A stretch of DNA of 64,000 nucleotides from Desulforadius tongensis (lineage in GTDB: Bacteria > Bacillota > Desulfotomaculia > Desulfotomaculales > Desulfohalotomaculaceae): positions 1-64,000 of the forward strand of contig NZ_JAFBCW010000009.1 of the NCBI RefSeq assembly GCF_016907915.1, in the 5' to 3' direction. The first letter of the stretch is position 1, and every line of letters starts with the position of its first letter. Of this stretch, positions 11,858 through 46,667 are shown piece by piece. The position numbers and the translations under genes were made by a program. The notes under the pieces were generated by a model. It did not search any database and was not told the origin of the DNA. It saw only the letters and a program-made list of their open reading frames with translations.

Positions 11858-12238
11858 TAATTAATTTTATTATGCCCCAAAATACAGTTAGAGTTAAGTT
11901 CGTATAATTGTGTAAAAAGGATTTGACTCTAAAAAATAAATGAGCAATTTACAAATTCCCCAGTTAGAAGGTAATTTGGAAAAAACTAAAAAATTATATA
12001 GGCGCTTGTTCCGGTATACAGTTTTCCAGCTAAAAATTTGCACATAAATTCGGACTTGATCTGGTGTTTAAAGCAATAAAATAATATTTGTTGTTTACAT
12101 ACACCAAATTCTATATAACAGGCTTAAATCCCTATTATTAATGTCATTTGTAACCACATGGTATTAGACTATTTCCCCATTAGCAGATATAATATCTACA
12201 ATTGTAACAAGTTTATAAAATTCTATATTTTTAAAAGA
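11858..12238. other. AT-rich intergenic region with probable riboswitch promoter
   Basis: No gene is visible. Near its end the plus strand has a consensus -10 TATAAT at 12188-12193, with a weak -35 (TTAGAC, 12164-12169) 18 bp upstream. Transcription would begin near 12200 and enter the riboswitch. The remainder is AT-rich with no recognisable structure. Confidence 0.5.
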
Positions 12239-12361
12239 ACGCTTAGTTCTCAGACGAGAAGCGGGGGATCCAACTTTTGGGGTGAATCCATTTTTTATTG
12301 GTAGGGCTACCCTTCGGCCCGAACCCGTCAGCTAACCTCGTAGGCGTGGCAAGGGGAGTGT
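12239..12361 (+). promoter_or_regulatory. c-di-AMP riboswitch (ydaO-yuaA type)
   Basis: The conserved core of this RNA class is present: GGGGGATCCAACTTTTGGGG then GTGAATCC, AGGGC...GCCC, and CCGAACCCGTCAGCTAACCT followed by CGTAGGCG. ACGCTT (12239-12244) can pair with GAGTGT (12356-12361) as a closing P1 helix. In known cases c-di-AMP binding promotes termination, turning off cell-wall, potassium and osmolyte functions. A terminator stands about 100 nt downstream. AAGGGG at 12351-12356 is complementary to CCCCTT in that terminator, which could form an antiterminator; this pairing is inference. Confidence 0.88.
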
Positions 12362-35595: not shown

Positions 35596-36618
35596 TTAAA
35601 TTTCCTCCATCTCCCTGCCCACGGCCCAGGCAATAACTCGCAGTTCCGCCATCAGCGCTTTAAAATTTTGCGGCGTCAATGACTGCTTACCATCACAAAG
35701 CGCCTCCGGCGGATTAGGGTGCACCTCAATCAACAAACCGTCAGCCCCGGCAGCCACCGCGGCCCTGGACATATCACCTACAAAACGCCAATTGCCGATG
35801 GCATGACTGGGATCAACAATTACCGGCAGGTGAGAAAGATACTTAATTACCGGTACCGCCGTTAAATCCAAAGTGTTGCGGGTATATGATTCAAAACTTT
35901 TAATTCCCCGCTCGCACAAAATAACATTGGAATTTCCCCCGGCCAAAATGTATTCAGCAGCCATCAACCATTCTTCCACCGTGGCAGAGGGAGCCCGCTT
36001 CAGCAATACAGGTTTGCCCACCTTGGCCACCTGACGCAGCAGGAAAAAATTTTGCATGTTGCGGGCACCAATTTGCAGTATGTCGGCATATTCACTTACC
36101 AACGGCAGGGTACTGGTATCCATAACCTCCGTTACCACCGGCAGGCCGGTGATTTCCCTGACCTCGGCCAGCAGTTTCAGTCCTTTTTCTTCTAAACCTT
36201 GAAATGAATACGGGGATGTGCGGGGCTTATAAGCACCGCCGCGCAGGATTGTGGCCCCACCCGCTTTCACCTGTTCCGCTGCTTCTAAAAGCTGTTCCCG
36301 GCTTTCCACCGCGCAGGGACCGGCCATCACTTGAATATGATCGCCGCCTATTTCAAGGTTACCCACCCTAACAACGGTATCTTCCTCTTTAAATACCCTG
36401 GAAGCCAGCTTAAAGGGATGCATGATGGGAACCACTTTTTCCACACCGGGCATTGCTTCCAGCGCAATATCATTTATCTGGGTACGATCCCCAACGGCAC
36501 CAATGATGGTGCGCTCCACCCCTTTGGATAAATGCACTCGAAAACCCGCTTGTTCCAATTTATCAATCACCAGCTGAATATCTTCCTGGCCGGCGCAATG
36601 ATTCATAATAACTATCAC
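35596..36618 (-). CDS. aroF: DAHP synthase, full length with N-terminal regulatory domain
   Basis: Condenses phosphoenolpyruvate and erythrose 4-phosphate, the first step to chorismate. 340 residues. An N-terminal ferredoxin-like regulatory domain (about 1-70) precedes the KDSA-like TIM barrel: [56 protein letters not shown] and [10 protein letters not shown]. In relatives such as Thermotoga the extra domain gives tyrosine/phenylalanine feedback. The start is GTG 36618 just after AGAGGAGGGG; ATG 36606 is possible. A second DAHP synthase without this domain ends the trp operon. Confidence 0.95.
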
Positions 36619-39046: not shown

Positions 39047-39072
39047 AGTAGGGCTCAATAATGAACCCTACT
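39047..39072. terminator. Terminator of trp operon / CBS gene
   Basis: Inverted repeat AGTAGGG / CCCTACT (39047-39053 and 39066-39072) between the convergent CBS gene and the last gene of the trp operon, overlapping the latter's stop codon. No long T run. Confidence 0.6.
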
Positions 39073-39882
39073 CCGGTCTAAAGCATGATCAATTGCTCTC
39101 ACCATCTTTAGAAGCACCGCCAACTCCCGCGGCGTAATAGACTGCTGACCATCGGACAGCGCTTTCCCGGGGTTGGGGTGTACTTCAATCATCAGCCCGT
39201 CTGCTCCGGCAGCTGCTGCCGCTTTAGCTGCGGGAGCAACCAGTTCCCTTCGGCCGGTGGCATGGCTGGGATCAACTATCACCGGCAGGTGAGACAAGTT
39301 TTTCACCGCCCCCACCGCTGCCACATCCAGCGTGTTCCTGGTATAGGTTTCAAAGGTACGGATTCCCCGTTCACACAGTATAACCTGCTGGTTTCCTTCT
39401 GCTAAAATATATTCCGCCGCCAGCAGCCATTCTTCAATGGTGGCCGATAAACCGCGCTTCAACATCACCGGTTTATCCATCTGCCCCACTTCCCGCAGCA
39501 GGGTATAATTTTGCATGTTTCTGCTGCCGATCTGAATGATGTCCGCGTAACGATATACCAGTTCACCGTCGCGCACATCCATAAGTTCAGTAACCACGGG
39601 CAGACCGGTACAGCGGCCCGCTTCGTTCAGTATGCGCAGCCCTTCTTCCCCCAACCCCTGAAAGGAATAAGGGGAAGTACGGGGTTTAAAGGCACCACCG
39701 CGCAGTACATGTACACCCATATCTTTTAATACCGGGGCCAGCTCCAGCATCATTTCCCGGTTCTCCACCGCACAGGGGCCGGCAATAATCAAAGTGTTAC
39801 CACCGCCCACGGCAGCGGTTCCTAAATGTATAACGGTATCCTCTTTTTTGTATTCGCGACTTGCCAGCTGAAATGACGGCAA
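39055..39882 (-). CDS. aroF: DAHP synthase, short form without regulatory domain (end of trp operon)
   Basis: 275 residues forming only the catalytic barrel: [56 protein letters not shown] and [11 protein letters not shown]. Compared with the full-length paralogue at 35596 it lacks the N-terminal regulatory domain of about 70 residues. The frame extends to 39972 inside trpA, but that part is unrelated sequence. The real start is TTG 39882, 7 nt after AGGAGGTG. It begins 14 bp after the trpA stop, so it is the eighth gene of the trp operon and presumably gives chorismate supply controlled with tryptophan need rather than by Tyr/Phe feedback. Confidence 0.9.
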
Positions 39883-39895
39883 AACAAAACACCTC

Positions 39896-40687
39896 CTAAC
39901 CGGACAGGGCAGACTTAAAATCAGCCACCAATCCGGCCACCATACTAACCGCGTTATCAGAATTATTTTCAATTATCTTTACCAGCACACTGCCTGCGAT
40001 AACAGCATCACAATGTCTTGCTATCTGAGCTGCCTGGGCAGGAGCAGACACACCAAAACCAATTCCCACCGGCAGTGAAGTAACTTGGCGTACCCTGCTA
40101 GTTAAATTCGCTATTTGATTATTAGTTTCCTCCCTAACACCGGTAACCCCGGTAACAGAAACACAGTAAATAAACCCTCTGGAAAAGCGGGCAATCTTTT
40201 TCAGCCTGGCTTCCGTAGTGGTTGGTGCCACCAGTTGAATTAAATACAAACCTTTCTCCAGCGCCCGGCTGAACAGAGGAGGGCATTCCTCAACCGGCAG
40301 ATCAGGTACAATCACTCCATCCACCCCCGCCTCAACCGCATGCTGTACAAAATTATCCAAGCCGTACTGCAGGATGGGGTTATAGTAGGACATCAGTACC
40401 AGCGGTACCTGCTCCGTCTTACGAATTATTGTCACTGCCTCTAATATTTTAGCCAGTGTTGTACCCCGCTCCAGCGAGCGCTGAACAGCCTTTTGAATTA
40501 CCGGCCCGTCTGCCAGGGGTTCAGAGTAAGGAACTCCCAGTTCAATGATATCCGCCCCGGCACCGGTCATGGCCCGCACCAGTTCCACCGTAGTGCCAAG
40601 ATCTGGATCCCCCGCAGTAACAAAGGGAATAAAAGCCTTTTGCCCATTTTCTTTTAAATTTGCAAAACAGTTATCTATCCTATTCAT
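39896..40687 (-). CDS. trpA: Tryptophan synthase alpha chain
   Basis: Cleaves indole-3-glycerol phosphate to indole. 263 residues. The catalytic Glu and Asp are in IIELGVPYSEPLADGPVIQ (about 46-64), and the phosphate loop is VGIGFGVSAPAQAAQ. YCVSVTGVTGVREE is the usual beta6 segment. The start overlaps the trpB stop by one base, so it is translationally coupled to trpB, as expected for the alpha2-beta2 complex. Confidence 0.97.
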   Translation of the reverse strand: MNRIDNCFANLKENGQKAFIPFVTAGDPDLGTTVELVRAMTGAGADIIELGVPYSEPLADGPVIQKAVQRSLERGTTLAKILEAVTIIRKTEQVPLVLMSYYNPILQYGLDNFVQHAVEAGVDGVIVPDLPVEECPPLFSRALEKGLYLIQLVAPTTTEARLKKIARFSRGFIYCVSVTGVTGVREETNNQIANLTSRVRQVTSLPVGIGFGVSAPAQAAQIARHCDAVIAGSVLVKIIENNSDNAVSMVAGLVADFKSALSG

Positions 40688-41880
40688 TATACCTTCGCCC
40701 CCACCATTTTGGCCATTGTATTTACATCTTTATCTCCCCGCCCAGACAGGTTAACAATGATAATTGATTCCGGCGGAAGCTGCGGCGCCAGTTTTACCGC
40801 CTCTGCCAGGGCGTGAGCACTTTCCAGCGCCGGAATAATGCCATCGGTGCGGCACAGAAGCTGAAAGGCCTTTACCGCTTCCCCGTCTTCGGCAGAAGTA
40901 TAAACGACCCGGTTAATATCTTTTAGATAGCTGTGTTCAGGTCCCACACCGGGGTAGTCTAACCCGGCAGATATGGAATGTACCGGCAGCACCTGACCGT
41001 GCTCATCCTGCAAAACATAGCTGTAGCTTCCCTGCAGCACGCCGGGTTTTCCCCGGGAAAGGGTGGCACAATGCCGCCCGCTTTCCAGGCCGTGCCCGGC
41101 AGCCTCCACACCAATCAGTTTAACTTCTTTATCCTGCAAAAAAGGATAAAATATACCCATGGCATTGCTGCCCCCGCCAACACAGGCAATTACATAATCC
41201 GGCAGTCTCCCGGTGTGCTCTAAAATTTGCTCCCTGGCTTCAATACCAATCACCGCTTGAAAATCACGCACCATTTCCGGGTAAGGGTGGGGACCGGCCA
41301 CCGAGCCAATGCAGTAATAAGTATTTTCCACATTGGTTACCCAGTCACGAATGGCTTCATTCATGGCATCTTTTAATGTACGGCTGCCGCTTTTTACAGT
41401 AATCACTTCCGCCCCCAGCAGCCTCATCCGAAAAACATTCAGCGCCTGCCGGTGAACATCCTCTTCTCCCATATAAACGCTGCATTGAAATCCAAACAGT
41501 GCCGCCGCGGTGGCAGTGGCCACCCCGTGCTGGCCTGCCCCGGTTTCCGCAATCACTCTTGTTTTGCCCATCCGCCCGGCCAACAGCAGCTGGCCAATGG
41601 TATTATTTATTTTATGGGCCCCGGTGTGATTGAGGTCTTCCCGTTTAAGATAGATTTGCGCTCCACCGCAGTGCCTGGTTAAGCCGCAAGCAAAATACAG
41701 CGGTGATGGGCGGCCCACATATTGATGCAAATAGTACTTAAACCGGTGATTAAACTCCTTATCTTTTTTAGCCAATCGATAACTTTCGCTTAACTCTTCC
41801 AGGGCGGGCATTAATGTTTCCGGCACAAAACGCCCGCCGTAATCTCCAAAATATCCGCGCTCATCGGGTATGGACATCAT
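40687..41880 (-). CDS. trpB: Tryptophan synthase beta chain
   Basis: A PLP enzyme that joins indole and serine. 397 residues. The PLP lysine is in [10 protein letters not shown] (about residue 90), the phosphate-binding loop is [10 protein letters not shown] and the C-terminal motif is NLSGRGDKD. It opens with [17 protein letters not shown], a canonical TrpB1 start. AAGGAG precedes ATG 41880. It is adjacent to trpF and trpA. Confidence 0.97.
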
Positions 41881-41909
41881 TTATATTAACTCCTTTCTGC
41901 CGTGTCTTT

Positions 41910-42548
41910 TCATTCCCTGGTGGTGCCGCAGGGCGGCATGTATGCTCTTCTAATAAACAGGGCAATTTTCTGCAAATCTTTCCTGCTGCCGGTTTCTACA
42001 CCGCTGGAAACATCCACAGCGTAGGGACGTACAGCTTTTATGGCCGCGGCCACGTTATCCGGGGTCAAGCCCCCGGCCAGTATAACCGGGCATTTTACCC
42101 GCACTTCTTTTAACCACTGCCAATTAAAGGTATGCCCGGTGCCCCCGGCGGCACCGGGAGTGTAGGCATCCAAAAGCACCGCTCGGGCCGGGTATTCGGC
42201 TGCCTGCCGCAATACTGTAATATCTTTAACCCGGAAAGCTTTTATCACCGGCAGCCCCAACTCACTGGCGTACCGCGGGGGCTCATCCCCGTGCAGCTGT
42301 ACAAAATCCAAATTACAATAGGCAGCAATCCGGCGCACCTCATCAATAGAAGCGTTAACAAATACCCCCACCCTGCTGACAAAGGGAGGTAAATTTAGGC
42401 TAATCTCCCTGGCTTGATCCGGCGATACCTGCCGGAAACTGGGGGCAAACACAAAACCCAAAGCATGGGCACCGTACTTTACCGCCGCCAGAGCAGTGGT
42501 TAAGTCCTGAATACCGCATATCTTTACCCGTACCCTATGCTCATACAC
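41910..42548 (-). CDS. trpF: Phosphoribosylanthranilate isomerase
   Basis: Amadori rearrangement step of tryptophan synthesis. 212 residues: VKICGIQDLTTALAAVKYGA, GFVFAPSFRQVSPDQA, FVQLHGDEPP and LAGGLTPDNVAAAI are all present. The open frame runs up to 42758, but the first 70 residues are trpC sequence read in another frame. The start is GTG 42548, which overlaps the last 8 nt of trpC and has GGGGGTG 6 nt upstream, indicating translational coupling. Confidence 0.93.
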   Translation of the reverse strand: MYEHRVRVKICGIQDLTTALAAVKYGAHALGFVFAPSFRQVSPDQAREISLNLPPFVSRVGVFVNASIDEVRRIAAYCNLDFVQLHGDEPPRYASELGLPVIKAFRVKDITVLRQAAEYPARAVLLDAYTPGAAGGTGHTFNWQWLKEVRVKCPVILAGGLTPDNVAAAIKAVRPYAVDVSSGVETGSRKDLQKIALFIRRAYMPPCGTTRE

Positions 42549-43335
42549 GGTAATCACCCCCGGCCAGCAATTGTGAAAGTTTAGCAGCCGGATCGGGAGC
42601 AGCCACCAGCGTTTCCCCCACCAACACTGAATGAACCCGGTGGTGGGCCAGTTCAGCCATTTGGTCAGCGTTTTTAATGCCGCTTTCACTGACCACTGTA
42701 ATTTCCGGCTCGGTGATTTGACGGCGTAATTTAAAGGTGGTGGCAATGTCCGTTTCAAAGGTGTGCAGGTCGCGGTTATTTATTCCAATAAGTTTAGCAC
42801 CGGCAGCCAGTGCCCGCTGCAGCTCAGTTTCATCATGCACTTCCACCAGTGCTGCCATACCAAGACTTTCTGCTAAAAGACACAGTTCCGGCAGCCTGTC
42901 ATCGTCCAGCACCGCCGCAATCAGCAGCACCGCATCAGCCCCCAGTGCCCTGGCCTGGTATACCTGGTATGGAGCAATGATAAAATCCTTCCTGAGCAGC
43001 GGCAGTTGAGTATTCCTGCGTATATCAGCCAGGTGCTGCCGGTGTCCGCCAAAAAATTTGCTGTCGGTGAGCACAGATATGGCCGCCGCTCCAGCCCCGG
43101 CGTAGCTGCGGGCCAGGGCAAGATGGTCGAAATGGGGACACAGTAAACCTTTGGATGGGGAACGCCGCTTAACCTCTGCTATCACATTTACTCTCCCCGG
43201 TGTTCTCAGCGCCCGGGTAAAGTCCCGGGGAACGGGTGCCAAAAGGGCCAGCTCTTTTATTTTATCTAAGGGCACCTGCTGCATTTCATGTTTAAGCTCC
43301 TGTTCTTTATGCTGCAGTATGCGCTGCAGTATCAA
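42541..43335 (-). CDS. trpC: Indole-3-glycerol phosphate synthase
   Basis: Cyclises carboxyphenylaminodeoxyribulose phosphate. 264 residues with VIAEVKRRSPSKG (about 51-63), LRKDFIIAPYQVYQA, INNRDLHTFETD and VSESGI. It starts with the typical MILQRILQHKEQEL. The start overlaps the trpD stop in an ATGA arrangement and the end overlaps trpF. Confidence 0.97.
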   Translation of the reverse strand: MILQRILQHKEQELKHEMQQVPLDKIKELALLAPVPRDFTRALRTPGRVNVIAEVKRRSPSKGLLCPHFDHLALARSYAGAGAAAISVLTDSKFFGGHRQHLADIRRNTQLPLLRKDFIIAPYQVYQARALGADAVLLIAAVLDDDRLPELCLLAESLGMAALVEVHDETELQRALAAGAKLIGINNRDLHTFETDIATTFKLRRQITEPEITVVSESGIKNADQMAELAHHRVHSVLVGETLVAAPDPAAKLSQLLAGGDYRV

Positions 43336-44369
43336 AAGCTGACCACTCCTCTGCCGGGCAGTGCAGCGGTAAACCTAACCAACTCTTCCAGCTTAGCAGC
43401 AGCAGCCCCGCTGTCAATGGACCACTGGGCCAGTTTAATACCGGCGGCTATATCCGCCGCCTTCCCGGCACATATCAAGCCCAGGGCCGCGTTTAATACC
43501 ACGGCGTCCCGGCGTGGGCCGCCGGCCCCCTTTAATATTTCCCTGGTAATGGCAGCATTTTCTTCCGCAGTGCCCCCTGCCAGTGCTTCCACCGGAGCCG
43601 GTGCAAAACCGTAATCTGTGGGATTTATGGTATAACCGGTTATCCGTCCCTCCCATACCGCACACACAACTGTGGGACCGGCCAGTGATACTTCATCCAG
43701 CCCCCCAGCACCATGCAGTACAAAGACCCGTTTACTGCCCAACCGGGCCAACACCCGGGCCAACTTATCCACCAAACCGGCGTCATATACCCCCAGCACC
43801 TGGGCCTGGGCTCCGGCGGGATTAGTCAACGGCCCCAAAATGTTAAAAACTGTGCGGATACCAATTTCTTTTCGCGGGGCAGCGGCATGCTTCATAGCCC
43901 TGTGCAGCTGCGGTGCAAACAAAAAACATATGCCGCACTCATCCAGGCACCGGCCTGCCTGTTCAGCTGTTAGGTTTATCCTCACCCCCAGCGCTTCCAG
44001 CAGATCGGCACTGCCGCAGCAGCTGCTGACAGAACGGTTGCCGTGCTTGGCTACTTTGGCCCCGGCACCGGCCAGTACAAAGGCCGCAGTGGTGGATATG
44101 TTAAAGGTGCGCGCACCGTCGCCGCCGGTGCCGCAGGTGTCCACCAGCAAAGGATGCTTACTCTTTACCGGGACAGCTTTCTGCCGCATCACCCGGGCAA
44201 ACCCGGTAATTTCATCCACATGTTCGCCTTTTAAGCGCAGCGCGGTGAGCAGGGCAGCTATCTGAGCTGCGCTGGCTCGCCCTTCCATAATTTCAGTCAT
44301 CACATTCACCGCTTCATTTTCGGTAAGATGTTCACCGGCTACCAGTTTTTTAATTGCCTGTGATATCAT
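43332..44369 (-). CDS. trpD: Anthranilate phosphoribosyltransferase
   Basis: 345 residues from ATG 44369, preceded by GGAGAGGAGAG. Motifs are VDTCGTGGDGARTFNIST (PRPP-binding glycine loop), AKHGNRSVSSCCGSADLLEALG and NILGPLTNPAGA. The extension to 44390 is not used. It overlaps trpC by 4 nt and lies 42 bp after trpG. Confidence 0.96.
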   Translation of the reverse strand: MISQAIKKLVAGEHLTENEAVNVMTEIMEGRASAAQIAALLTALRLKGEHVDEITGFARVMRQKAVPVKSKHPLLVDTCGTGGDGARTFNISTTAAFVLAGAGAKVAKHGNRSVSSCCGSADLLEALGVRINLTAEQAGRCLDECGICFLFAPQLHRAMKHAAAPRKEIGIRTVFNILGPLTNPAGAQAQVLGVYDAGLVDKLARVLARLGSKRVFVLHGAGGLDEVSLAGPTVVCAVWEGRITGYTINPTDYGFAPAPVEALAGGTAEENAAITREILKGAGGPRRDAVVLNAALGLICAGKAADIAAGIKLAQWSIDSGAAAAKLEELVRFTAALPGRGVVSF

Positions 44370-44411: not shown

Positions 44412-44981
44412 CTAACTGATCAACTGCAGATAATTTTTTAAAATATGATGCCCATACCCGGTGAGCACTGATTCGGGGTGAAACTGCACACCGTAAACAT
44501 GATAACGGCGGTGAGCCACCCCCATAATTTCCCCCTCTTCTGTCCAGGCAGTAACCTCCAGGCAGTCCGGCAGTTTTTCCGGTGACAAAACCAGGGAGTG
44601 GTAGCGTCCCCCGGTAAAAGGTACCGGCAGGTTTTTAAACAAACCGAAACCCCTGTGCATAATGGGCGAACTTTTGCCGTGCACCGGTTTGCCTGCCCGC
44701 ACCACCCCGGCACCAAAGGCCTGCCCGATTACTTGATGGCCCAGGCACACCCCCAGGATAGGAATCTGCCCGGCTAAATGCTGCACCAGTTCTAAACAAA
44801 TGCCGGCTTCTTCCGGCCTACCCGGTCCGGGAGACAATATAATACCGGCGGGTCTTAACTTTTTTACCCCATTGACAGTAATTTGGTCATTACGATACAC
44901 CTCAACCCTTTGACCCAGTTCTCCCAAATACTGCACCAGGTTGTAAACAAAGGAATCATAATTGTCAATTACCAGCAGCAA
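44412..44981 (-). CDS. trpG: Anthranilate synthase component II (glutamine amidotransferase)
   Basis: Supplies ammonia to TrpE. 189 residues: LVIDNYDSFVYNLVQYL, the oxyanion region SPGPGRPEEAG, the nucleophile Cys in ILGVCLGHQ (about residue 79) and His/Glu in GVQFHPESVLTG. The start codon is TTG 44981, overlapping the trpE end by 17 nt. Because trpG is inside the operon, it differs from Bacillus subtilis, where it lies in the folate operon. Confidence 0.95.
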   Translation of the reverse strand: MLLVIDNYDSFVYNLVQYLGELGQRVEVYRNDQITVNGVKKLRPAGIILSPGPGRPEEAGICLELVQHLAGQIPILGVCLGHQVIGQAFGAGVVRAGKPVHGKSSPIMHRGFGLFKNLPVPFTGGRYHSLVLSPEKLPDCLEVTAWTEEGEIMGVAHRRYHVYGVQFHPESVLTGYGHHILKNYLQLIS

Positions 44982-46458
44982 GGGGAATCATCCCTCCTCT
45001 ACCATCAATTATCCCCAGCGAGCGGGCCATGGCCGCTGCCTTATTCAATGTTTCCCGGTACTCGCTATCCGGGTCGGATTCCGCCACTATACCGGCCCCA
45101 GCCTGGAAATAAGCCCTTCCCCGGTAAAAAACTATCGTGCGAATGGCTATGGCAGTATCCAAAACACCGTTAAATCCAAAATAACCAATGGCCCCGGCAT
45201 AAAGGCCGCGCCTTGTGGGTTCCAGCTGGTCAATAATTTCCATTGCCCTTATCTTCGGCGCCCCGCTAACAGTGCCGGCGGGAAAACAGGATTTTAAAGC
45301 CTCCACCGGAGTGTTTTGTTCATTTAACTTTCCCTTTACATTGGATACCAGGTGCATCACATGGGAATACTTCTCCACCTGCATAAACGCATTCACCTTT
45401 ACACTGCCCGGCTGGCACACCCGCCCCAGGTCATTGCGTCCCAGATCCACCAGCATTACATGCTCGGCTCGTTCCTTTTCATCGCTCAACAAATCCGCGG
45501 CCAGGGCTTTATCTTCCTTTTCATCCATTCCCCTGGGGCGCGTGCCGGCGATGGGCCGGGTCTGCACCACGTTATTTTCCACCCTCACCAGCATTTCCGG
45601 GGAGGCACCGGCAATAGAAATGTCTTCTAAATCCAGGTAATACATATACGGTGAAGGATTCAAACCACGCATACGGCGGTATACATCAAAAGGAGAACCG
45701 GAGTAATGGCAGGCAAAACGCTGGGAAAGTACCACTTGAAAAATGTCACCGGCGGCAATATATTCCTTGGCCCGGCGCACGGCAGCGGTAAATTGCTCCT
45801 TTGTACAGTTAGACGTCAATTGACCTGCCGCCGGCTGCGCCGGTAATTTCAATGAATAACTCTGCCGGAGCAATTTTTCAATCTGCTCCAACACCCTTAC
45901 AGCTCTCCGGTAATCCTCCCGGGCATCAGCACTTACCCTGCTGTTTACCACCGCGGTTAATACATGGCGAAGATGATCAAAAATTATTATCGTTTCACAA
46001 AATACAAGCAGTACATCCGGCAGCTGCAAATCATTTTCTGCCCGCCGGGGCAGGTTCTCCAGCGTGGCTGCCACATCATAGCCCAAATAACCCACCGCAC
46101 CGCCGTAAAACCGCGGCAAACCCGGTAAGCTGGGGCAGCGGTATTGGGCCAACACTTCCTCCAACAAATTCAATGGTTTACCTGTCAGCGTTTTAACTGC
46201 ACCGTCAAAGGTAAACTTTGTGCTTAAACCATTGCTGCGAAATACAGCAAATGGATTCAGCCCGATAAAGGAGTACCTGGCTGTTTGCTCATTTCCTTCT
46301 ACGCTTTCTAACAGGTAAACCGGTTTAAGCACTCTCATCTTTTGGTATACCGTTACCGGTGTTTCGGTATCCGCCAGCAGCTGCCGGCAGACCGGAATTA
46401 GGTTATAATGCCTGCTTAAATTAACAAATTCTCTCTCATCAATCTCATTAATTTGCAG
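44965..46458 (-). CDS. trpE: Anthranilate synthase component I
   Basis: Converts chorismate to anthranilate with TrpG. About 497 residues. The feedback motif LLES (VYLLESVEGNEQTARYSF) for tryptophan is near the N-terminus. The chorismate-binding core follows: NPSPYMYYLDL, ASPEMLVRVENN, GTRPRG, DLGRNDLGRVC, CFPAGTVSGAPKIRAME and ETLNKAAAMA. The start is uncertain: the frame runs to 46542 through the leader terminator, and no ATG, GTG or TTG is well placed. CTG 46458 lies 8 nt after AAGGAGG and fits the family's N-terminus. GTG 46467 abuts the ribosome-binding site. Confidence 0.93.
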   Translation of the reverse strand: MQINEIDEREFVNLSRHYNLIPVCRQLLADTETPVTVYQKMRVLKPVYLLESVEGNEQTARYSFIGLNPFAVFRSNGLSTKFTFDGAVKTLTGKPLNLLEEVLAQYRCPSLPGLPRFYGGAVGYLGYDVAATLENLPRRAENDLQLPDVLLVFCETIIIFDHLRHVLTAVVNSRVSADAREDYRRAVRVLEQIEKLLRQSYSLKLPAQPAAGQLTSNCTKEQFTAAVRRAKEYIAAGDIFQVVLSQRFACHYSGSPFDVYRRMRGLNPSPYMYYLDLEDISIAGASPEMLVRVENNVVQTRPIAGTRPRGMDEKEDKALAADLLSDEKERAEHVMLVDLGRNDLGRVCQPGSVKVNAFMQVEKYSHVMHLVSNVKGKLNEQNTPVEALKSCFPAGTVSGAPKIRAMEIIDQLEPTRRGLYAGAIGYFGFNGVLDTAIAIRTIVFYRGRAYFQAGAGIVAESDPDSEYRETLNKAAAMARSLGIIDGRGGMIPLAAGN

Positions 46459-46494
46459 CTCAATCACCTCCTTGCATGATTTAAAATGAAAAAC

Positions 46495-46524
46495 AAAAAA
46501 ACCAGCACTCAAGTAGAGTACCGG
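46495..46524 (-). terminator. trp leader attenuator (intrinsic terminator)
   Basis: Minus-strand stem CCGGTACTC / GAGTGCTGG (46524-46516 and 46510-46502), with two G-T pairs and a 5-nt loop, followed by seven T. It lies between the trp promoter and trpE. Its 5' side and loop overlap CTCTACTT (46518-46511), which can instead pair with the upstream GGTAGAG as an antiterminator. Confidence 0.9.
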
Positions 46525-46544
46525 TCTTCCGCCAAAAGACACAC

Positions 46545-46599
46545 CTCTCCCTCTACCTCAGCTCAACTAAACTCAACTAATCTCCACTCATCTCAACTA
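46545..46599 (-). promoter_or_regulatory. TRAP (MtrB)-type binding site: eleven (G/U)AG triplets in trp leader
   Basis: In the mRNA sense the triplets are UAG 46599-97, GAG 46594-92, GAG 46589-87, GAG 46584-82, UAG 46579-77, GAG 46574-72, UAG 46569-67, GAG 46564-62, GAG 46559-57, GAG 46553-51 and GAG 46547-45. Eight spacers are 2 nt and two are 3 nt. Eleven repeats with 2-3 nt spacers match the eleven-subunit TRAP ring of Bacillus. The last three triplets contain GGUAGAG, the 5' half of the antiterminator that pairs with CUCUACUU in the terminator, so bound protein would favour termination. The mtrB gene is not in this window. Confidence 0.88.
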
Positions 46600-46638
46600 A
46601 AAAATCCCTTATTCAGTTCTTACTAAATTATAATTATA

Positions 46639-46667
46639 TAATTAACACAAAAGTTATTACCAGTCAA
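46639..46667 (-). promoter_or_regulatory. Probable trp operon promoter
   Basis: Minus-strand -35 TTGACT (46667-46662) with a 17-bp spacer to -10 TAATTA (46644-46639). This would start transcription about 30 nt before the first (G/U)AG triplet, close to the arrangement in Bacillus. The region is very AT-rich and TATAAT at 46638-46633 is an alternative -10. Confidence 0.5.

Follow-up and report, generated by a model that had tools for sequence, protein, structure and literature searches.

A TRAP-type attenuator and a putative second TRAP site in the tryptophan operon of Desulforadius tongensis, with related arrays in its class

The trp operon and its leader

The window, that is, the whole 64,000-nt stretch of Desulforadius tongensis DNA that was analysed, carries a tryptophan operon on the minus strand, with the gene order trpEGDCFBA. 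The trpE open frame (positions 44965–46542) and trpG, encoding the glutamine amidotransferase of anthranilate synthase (44412–44981), are followed by trpD (43332–44369, with its AUG at 44369–44367) and by trpC, trpF, trpB, and trpA (39896–43335), at whose starts there are no triplet arrays of the kind described below. Two DAHP synthase-like (aroF) genes (35596–36618 and 39055–39972) lie on the trp strand downstream of trpA, also without TRAP arrays. Elsewhere, the window contains a c-di-AMP riboswitch (12230–12361, plus strand; Rfam RF00379, 106 bits).

Upstream of trpE, an array resembling a TRAP-binding site occupies positions 46599–46545 of the minus strand. It was recognized by reading that strand and by a scan with a simple chain model, from which all array bit scores given here are derived. 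The array consists of 11 (G/U)AG triplets, 8 GAG and 3 UAG, in the order TAG tt GAG at GAG tg GAG at TAG tt GAG tt TAG tt GAG ct GAG gta GAG gga GAG, with spacers of 2, 2, 2, 2, 2, 2, 2, 2, 3, and 3 nt; the tally of 11 holds when an overlapping UAG at 46555–46553 is skipped. Its score is 35 bits; when the 64-kb strand was dinucleotide-shuffled 200 times, the highest score was 13.5, and none of 20,000 local shuffles reached 34 bits. In the 2.57-Mb genome, exact matches to the four-triplet pattern are confined to two places, both within the trp operon. The initial annotation had counted eleven triplets, 8 GAG and 3 UAG, with 2-nt spacers except for two of 3 nt, and both the minus-strand sequence and the scan bear this out (eight 2-nt and two 3-nt spacers).

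The array is followed by an intrinsic terminator, located by folding at 46525–46495 (minus strand), with a 10-bp stem, a 5-nt loop, and a T7 run. The stem-loop ACCGGUACUC-UACUU-GAGUGCUGGU (46525–46501) reaches 10 bp with G-U pairs included, rather than the 9 bp first described, whereas the seven T of the run (46501–46495) had been described correctly; A-U pairs flanking the stem lengthen the fold to 15 pairs. Constrained folding placed the 5′ strand of an antiterminator, AGGUAGAG, within the array at 46558–46551, and folding together with a swap test (see below) placed its 3′ strand, CUCUACUU, at 46518–46511, where it overlaps the 5′ arm and loop of the terminator. These strands form 8 bp, one more than in the GGUAGAG-based pairing proposed initially, but the pairing and its exclusivity both stood: because CUC at 46518–46516 is used by the antiterminator and by the 5′ arm of the terminator, the two structures are mutually exclusive. 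The presence of a TRAP-type array and attenuator at the trpE leader is confirmed.

On the upstream side of the array, an AT-rich region (46667–46627, minus strand) with TTGACT at 46667 and TATAAT at 46638–46633 and 46632–46627 was tentatively assigned as the promoter; at the start coordinate of the initial annotation, the promoter search gave one weak consensus match, no better than in shuffles. The true trpE start is probably near 46467–46456, downstream of the leader, with the Shine-Dalgarno (SD) sequence AAGGAGG at 46473–46467. No in-frame ATG or TTG was found between 46473 and 46456; candidate starts are CTG at 46458 and, within the SD, GTG at 46467.

MtrB and the conservation of triplet arrays in the class

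TRAP, a textbook RNA-binding regulator, is the ring protein that works the RNA switch of the tryptophan operon in Bacillus, and to our knowledge it has been studied almost entirely in that genus. A search of the rest of the genome for its gene, mtrB, as proposed in the initial annotation, located the gene outside the window (G000:C17; E 5.8e-41). The encoded protein exceeded the cut-off of the NCBIfam equivalog NF009724 (143.6 bits vs 117) and was close to solved TRAP chains. At locus L001, mtrB sits between dnaE-like and accD-like genes, with no adjoining folE-type mtrA, which is its neighbour in B. subtilis. The equivalents of K37, K56, and R58, which are RNA contacts in B. subtilis MtrB (PMC7430163), are intact, and EKLDKG and AIKIRG motifs are present, in the MtrB of the window genome and in the class members examined. 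Position 60 differs: in B. subtilis, Glu60 is reported to be important when TRAP induces termination (PMC7430163), whereas the window genome has Arg, and the other sequences examined have Arg, Lys, or Gln. Anti-TRAP (PF15777), which the initial annotation had also suggested looking for, was not detected in the genome, where only two sub-cut-off matches were found, both in one DnaJ-like frame of 378 aa.

The class sample, made up of relatives of Desulfotomaculum, comprised 113 genomes from 55 genera, and mtrB was found in 105 of these genomes and 53 of the genera. For the array scan, 100 stretches were taken, mostly trp operons, and arrays near gene starts were counted if they scored 12 bits or more. 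Antisense strands and shuffles served as controls; reversed sequence was useless for this purpose because GAG repeats are palindromic in reverse. At this threshold, 155 arrays were found on the sense strand and 1 on the antisense strand. An array preceded trpE in 77 of the 87 testable class operons; in 68 of these, an intrinsic terminator comes next, frequently with the form CCGGYRCTCATTTGAGTGCCGG. The spacing in these arrays is mainly 2 nt, and the conservation of triplet spacing in related trp leaders, on which the initial annotation had staked its reading, is therefore borne out. Its statement that the likeness to Bacillus extends to the number of triplets holds for the window leader (11) but not for the class, in which counted runs range from 4 to 11 and many leaders have just 4–8 counted triplets.

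Arrays were also found at the starts of trpD (40/98), trpG (10/87), and trpA (2/83), compared with about 0 in shuffles. Nine operons of family f4 have an array 77–142 nt before trpG; eight of these arrays are accompanied by a terminator and thus make up a second complete attenuator. At loci L087, L089, L092–L095, and L102, trpE and trpG are separated by a TRAP-like attenuator that is complete and the second of its operon. In family f6, another array lies close to the start of trpA (L110, 6971–6993; L111, 6842–6864; trpD-forward coordinates), and two stand-alone trpB loci of the same family have both attenuator and SD arrays.

Outside the class, mtrB was present in 6 of 37 genomes (Kroppenstedtia and five of Planococcus type), and the same six genomes have arrays near a trpE-type gene (Fisher's p of approximately 3e-6 with all six counted and 6e-5 with the five that meet the preset limit). 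Within the class, three genomes have neither mtrB nor trp arrays, and some mtrB-bearing genomes have arrays at other targets only. The exception is a genome with a strong trpE array, in whose 99% complete assembly no mtrB was found. Where class trp operons lack arrays, most have T-boxes (seven operons, with tandem T-boxes in one), and among the class trp operons examined, T-boxes replace TRAP arrays and never occur together with them. One genome has a T-box trp operon, yet carries mtrB and arrays at trpP and iorA. A T-box reads tRNA charging, not free tryptophan; like TRAP, it senses the tryptophan supply at this operon in related genomes, and the two forms of control stand in for each other there.

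A second array at the trpD start

The initial annotation described a single array, that of the leader; the description of that array was sound, but a second array, at the trpD start, was overlooked. The scan identified it as the sole other array in the window (44414–44371, minus strand; 26 bits), with nine triplets (5 GAG, 3 UAG, and 1 AAG). The array spans the trpD SD, from the trpG stop codon, which supplies the first UAG, to a final GAG that stops 1 nt short of the trpD AUG, so that a triplet array overlaps the SD of a tryptophan gene. Arrays at the trpD start occur in about 36 class operons from 10 families. In 35 of the 40 detected, the array ends between −1 and +4 nt relative to the start codon, most commonly with the G of a GUG start doubling as part of the last triplet; none of these 35 is followed by a terminator. 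Judged from the sequence, this layout is that of translational repression by occlusion.

The trpG site of B. subtilis also has nine triplets, one AAG among them. TRAP controls the translation of B. subtilis trpG according to Yang et al. (1995), as cited in PMC3913778, and the trpD array resembles that site in overlapping a ribosome-binding site, at which translation would likewise be blocked by occlusion; it differs in preceding trpD, within the trp operon. The effect of TRAP on B. subtilis trpD is only indirect and relies on translational coupling to trpE, with which trpD overlaps by 29 nt (PMC2311275), whereas here trpG separates trpE from trpD, and trpD has an array of its own.

Alternatively, the leader attenuator could be the sole TRAP target, with the trpD array no more than an extended purine-rich SD that has no regulatory role. 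The array does overlap a GAGGAG-type SD in a purine-rich context, its score was matched by 3 of 20,000 local shuffles, and several mtrB-bearing families (f2, f5, and f15) lack it. However, UAG triplets and strict 2-nt spacing are not features of SDs, and 39 of the 243 triplets in trpD arrays are UAG. Moreover, the same criterion returned 0/329 at the starts of trpC, trpF, trpB, and aroF, although these genes need SDs too. The trpD arrays also keep a conserved register relative to the start codon, and neither the T-box operons nor 15 operons from outside the class have them. We consider this alternative unlikely and a TRAP-mediated block of translation at the trpD start likely.

Regulatory reading and the wider set of array-bearing genes

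In the proposed mechanism, tryptophan-bound TRAP would wrap the eleven-triplet leader array and block the AGGUAGAG/CUCUACUU antiterminator, the terminator would form, and transcription would stop before trpE. When tryptophan is absent, the antiterminator would form and RNA polymerase would read through. On transcripts that escape termination, TRAP would bind the nine-triplet array at the trpG-trpD junction and cover the trpD SD up to the start codon, which would block trpD translation. The predicted folds are consistent with the leader part of this scheme. With the array blocked, constrained folding retained the terminator, and for a transcript ending just before the 3′ arm of the terminator, the predicted minimum-energy fold was the antiterminator.

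Since GAG can pair with any CUC, RNAduplex comparison against shuffled arms said little about the antiterminator, and terminator arms were instead swapped between leaders. Arrays paired better with their own terminator arm than with foreign arms (Wilcoxon p 0.004, a value that is not fully independent because the sequences are related), and only 2% of foreign arms paired better than its own with the window leader. The pairing partners are GUAGAG and CUCUAC in the window genus and commonly AUGAG and CUCAU elsewhere.

It might be argued that TRAP binds the leader but that the strong hairpin terminates regardless, so that TRAP acts mainly on the translation of trpE or trpD. For the full-length leader, the terminator fold is indeed favoured over the antiterminator fold in prediction (−37.9 vs −30.6 kcal/mol), and read-through therefore depends on co-transcriptional folding. 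Nevertheless, until the 3′ arm has been transcribed the antiterminator is the most favourable predicted fold, throughout the class its partner strand fits the leader to which it belongs, and the attenuator layout is conserved in most trpE leaders with arrays; hairpin-driven termination independent of TRAP thus seems distinctly improbable. Control of the leader by another regulator, such as a T-box or leader peptide, with the triplets incidental, is nearly refuted: T-boxes do regulate the trp operons of some class members, but only operons without arrays, the Rfam search gave no match in this leader (T-box RF00230 included), and eleven spaced triplets, a terminator, an antiterminator, and a genomic mtrB occur together.

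We therefore favour tryptophan-activated TRAP attenuation of the trp operon at the trpE leader, with a probability of roughly 90%, in which TRAP binding, its tryptophan dependence, and its effect on transcription are inferred from the features above. The initial reading of the leader as a TRAP attenuator is supported to this extent. The B. subtilis trpEDCFBA leader has 11 (G/U)AG repeats with 2–3-nt spacers and mutually exclusive antiterminator and terminator structures, with the regulatory protein encoded by mtrB (PMC3913778), and the leader upstream of trpE described here resembles it in each of these respects. The two systems differ in that trpG lies inside the operon here, and in that the terminator combines a strong hairpin with an uninterrupted run of T, in contrast to the weak intrinsic terminator that serves as attenuator in B. 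subtilis (PMC3913778). For the TRAP-induced hairpin that sequesters the trpE SD in a B. subtilis-type circuit, single-sequence fold prediction gave no convincing counterpart, most of the SD staying open in the predicted fold; the genome search yielded no anti-TRAP, the antagonist in such a circuit.

Beyond the trp operon, arrays selected by pattern led mostly to tryptophan genes among the matches listed, which lends independent support to their being TRAP sites. Genes for TrpP-type ECF transporters had arrays at 23 of 24 class loci, and at several of them an attenuator is combined with an SD site. At eight loci where a TrpP-type gene is accompanied by an ECF ATPase gene, an attenuator-type array was noted, often with a second array over the SD. 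TrpB2 genes had arrays at 17 of 30 loci, mostly at the start codon, and iorA (indolepyruvate ferredoxin oxidoreductase) had them at 10 of 30, including the window genome. There, a third TRAP-like array with a terminator (L286, 1303–1407; G000:C4) lies upstream of iorA, which starts at 1501 in an operon of iorA, iorB, and a third, CoA-ligase-like gene; this arrangement suggests tryptophan control of an aryl-acid pathway. The matches listed also include arrays at stand-alone trpB genes, single cases at a TrpX-like binding protein (below the NCBIfam cut-off) and two permeases, and one array inside an unrelated coding sequence.

Taken together, the TRAP regulon of the class is probably an extended one. 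Each trp operon would have up to three sites (the trpE attenuator, a second full attenuator before trpG in some families, and the trpD start-codon site), and attenuator and/or SD sites would be present at trpP/ECF transporter genes, iorA, trpB2, and stand-alone trpB, with the trpD site directly replacing the translational coupling of B. subtilis. The attenuator alone is of a known type; what looks new is the conserved site at the trpD start, the attenuator before trpG, and the longer list of targets. In the open-access literature, we found no paper on TRAP arrays in this class or on a trpD-start TRAP site, although mtrB may already have been noted in bacteria other than Bacillus. The occurrence of such arrays throughout a class of anaerobes, where an operon can have several sites and more kinds of genes are targets, provides dozens of natural variants on which rules can be tested, such as those for triplet number, strong versus weak terminators, and residue 60. 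Furthermore, it assigns a role in tryptophan metabolism to poorly annotated genes, namely those of the TrpP-type ECF transporters, the iorA-iorB operon, and TrpB2.
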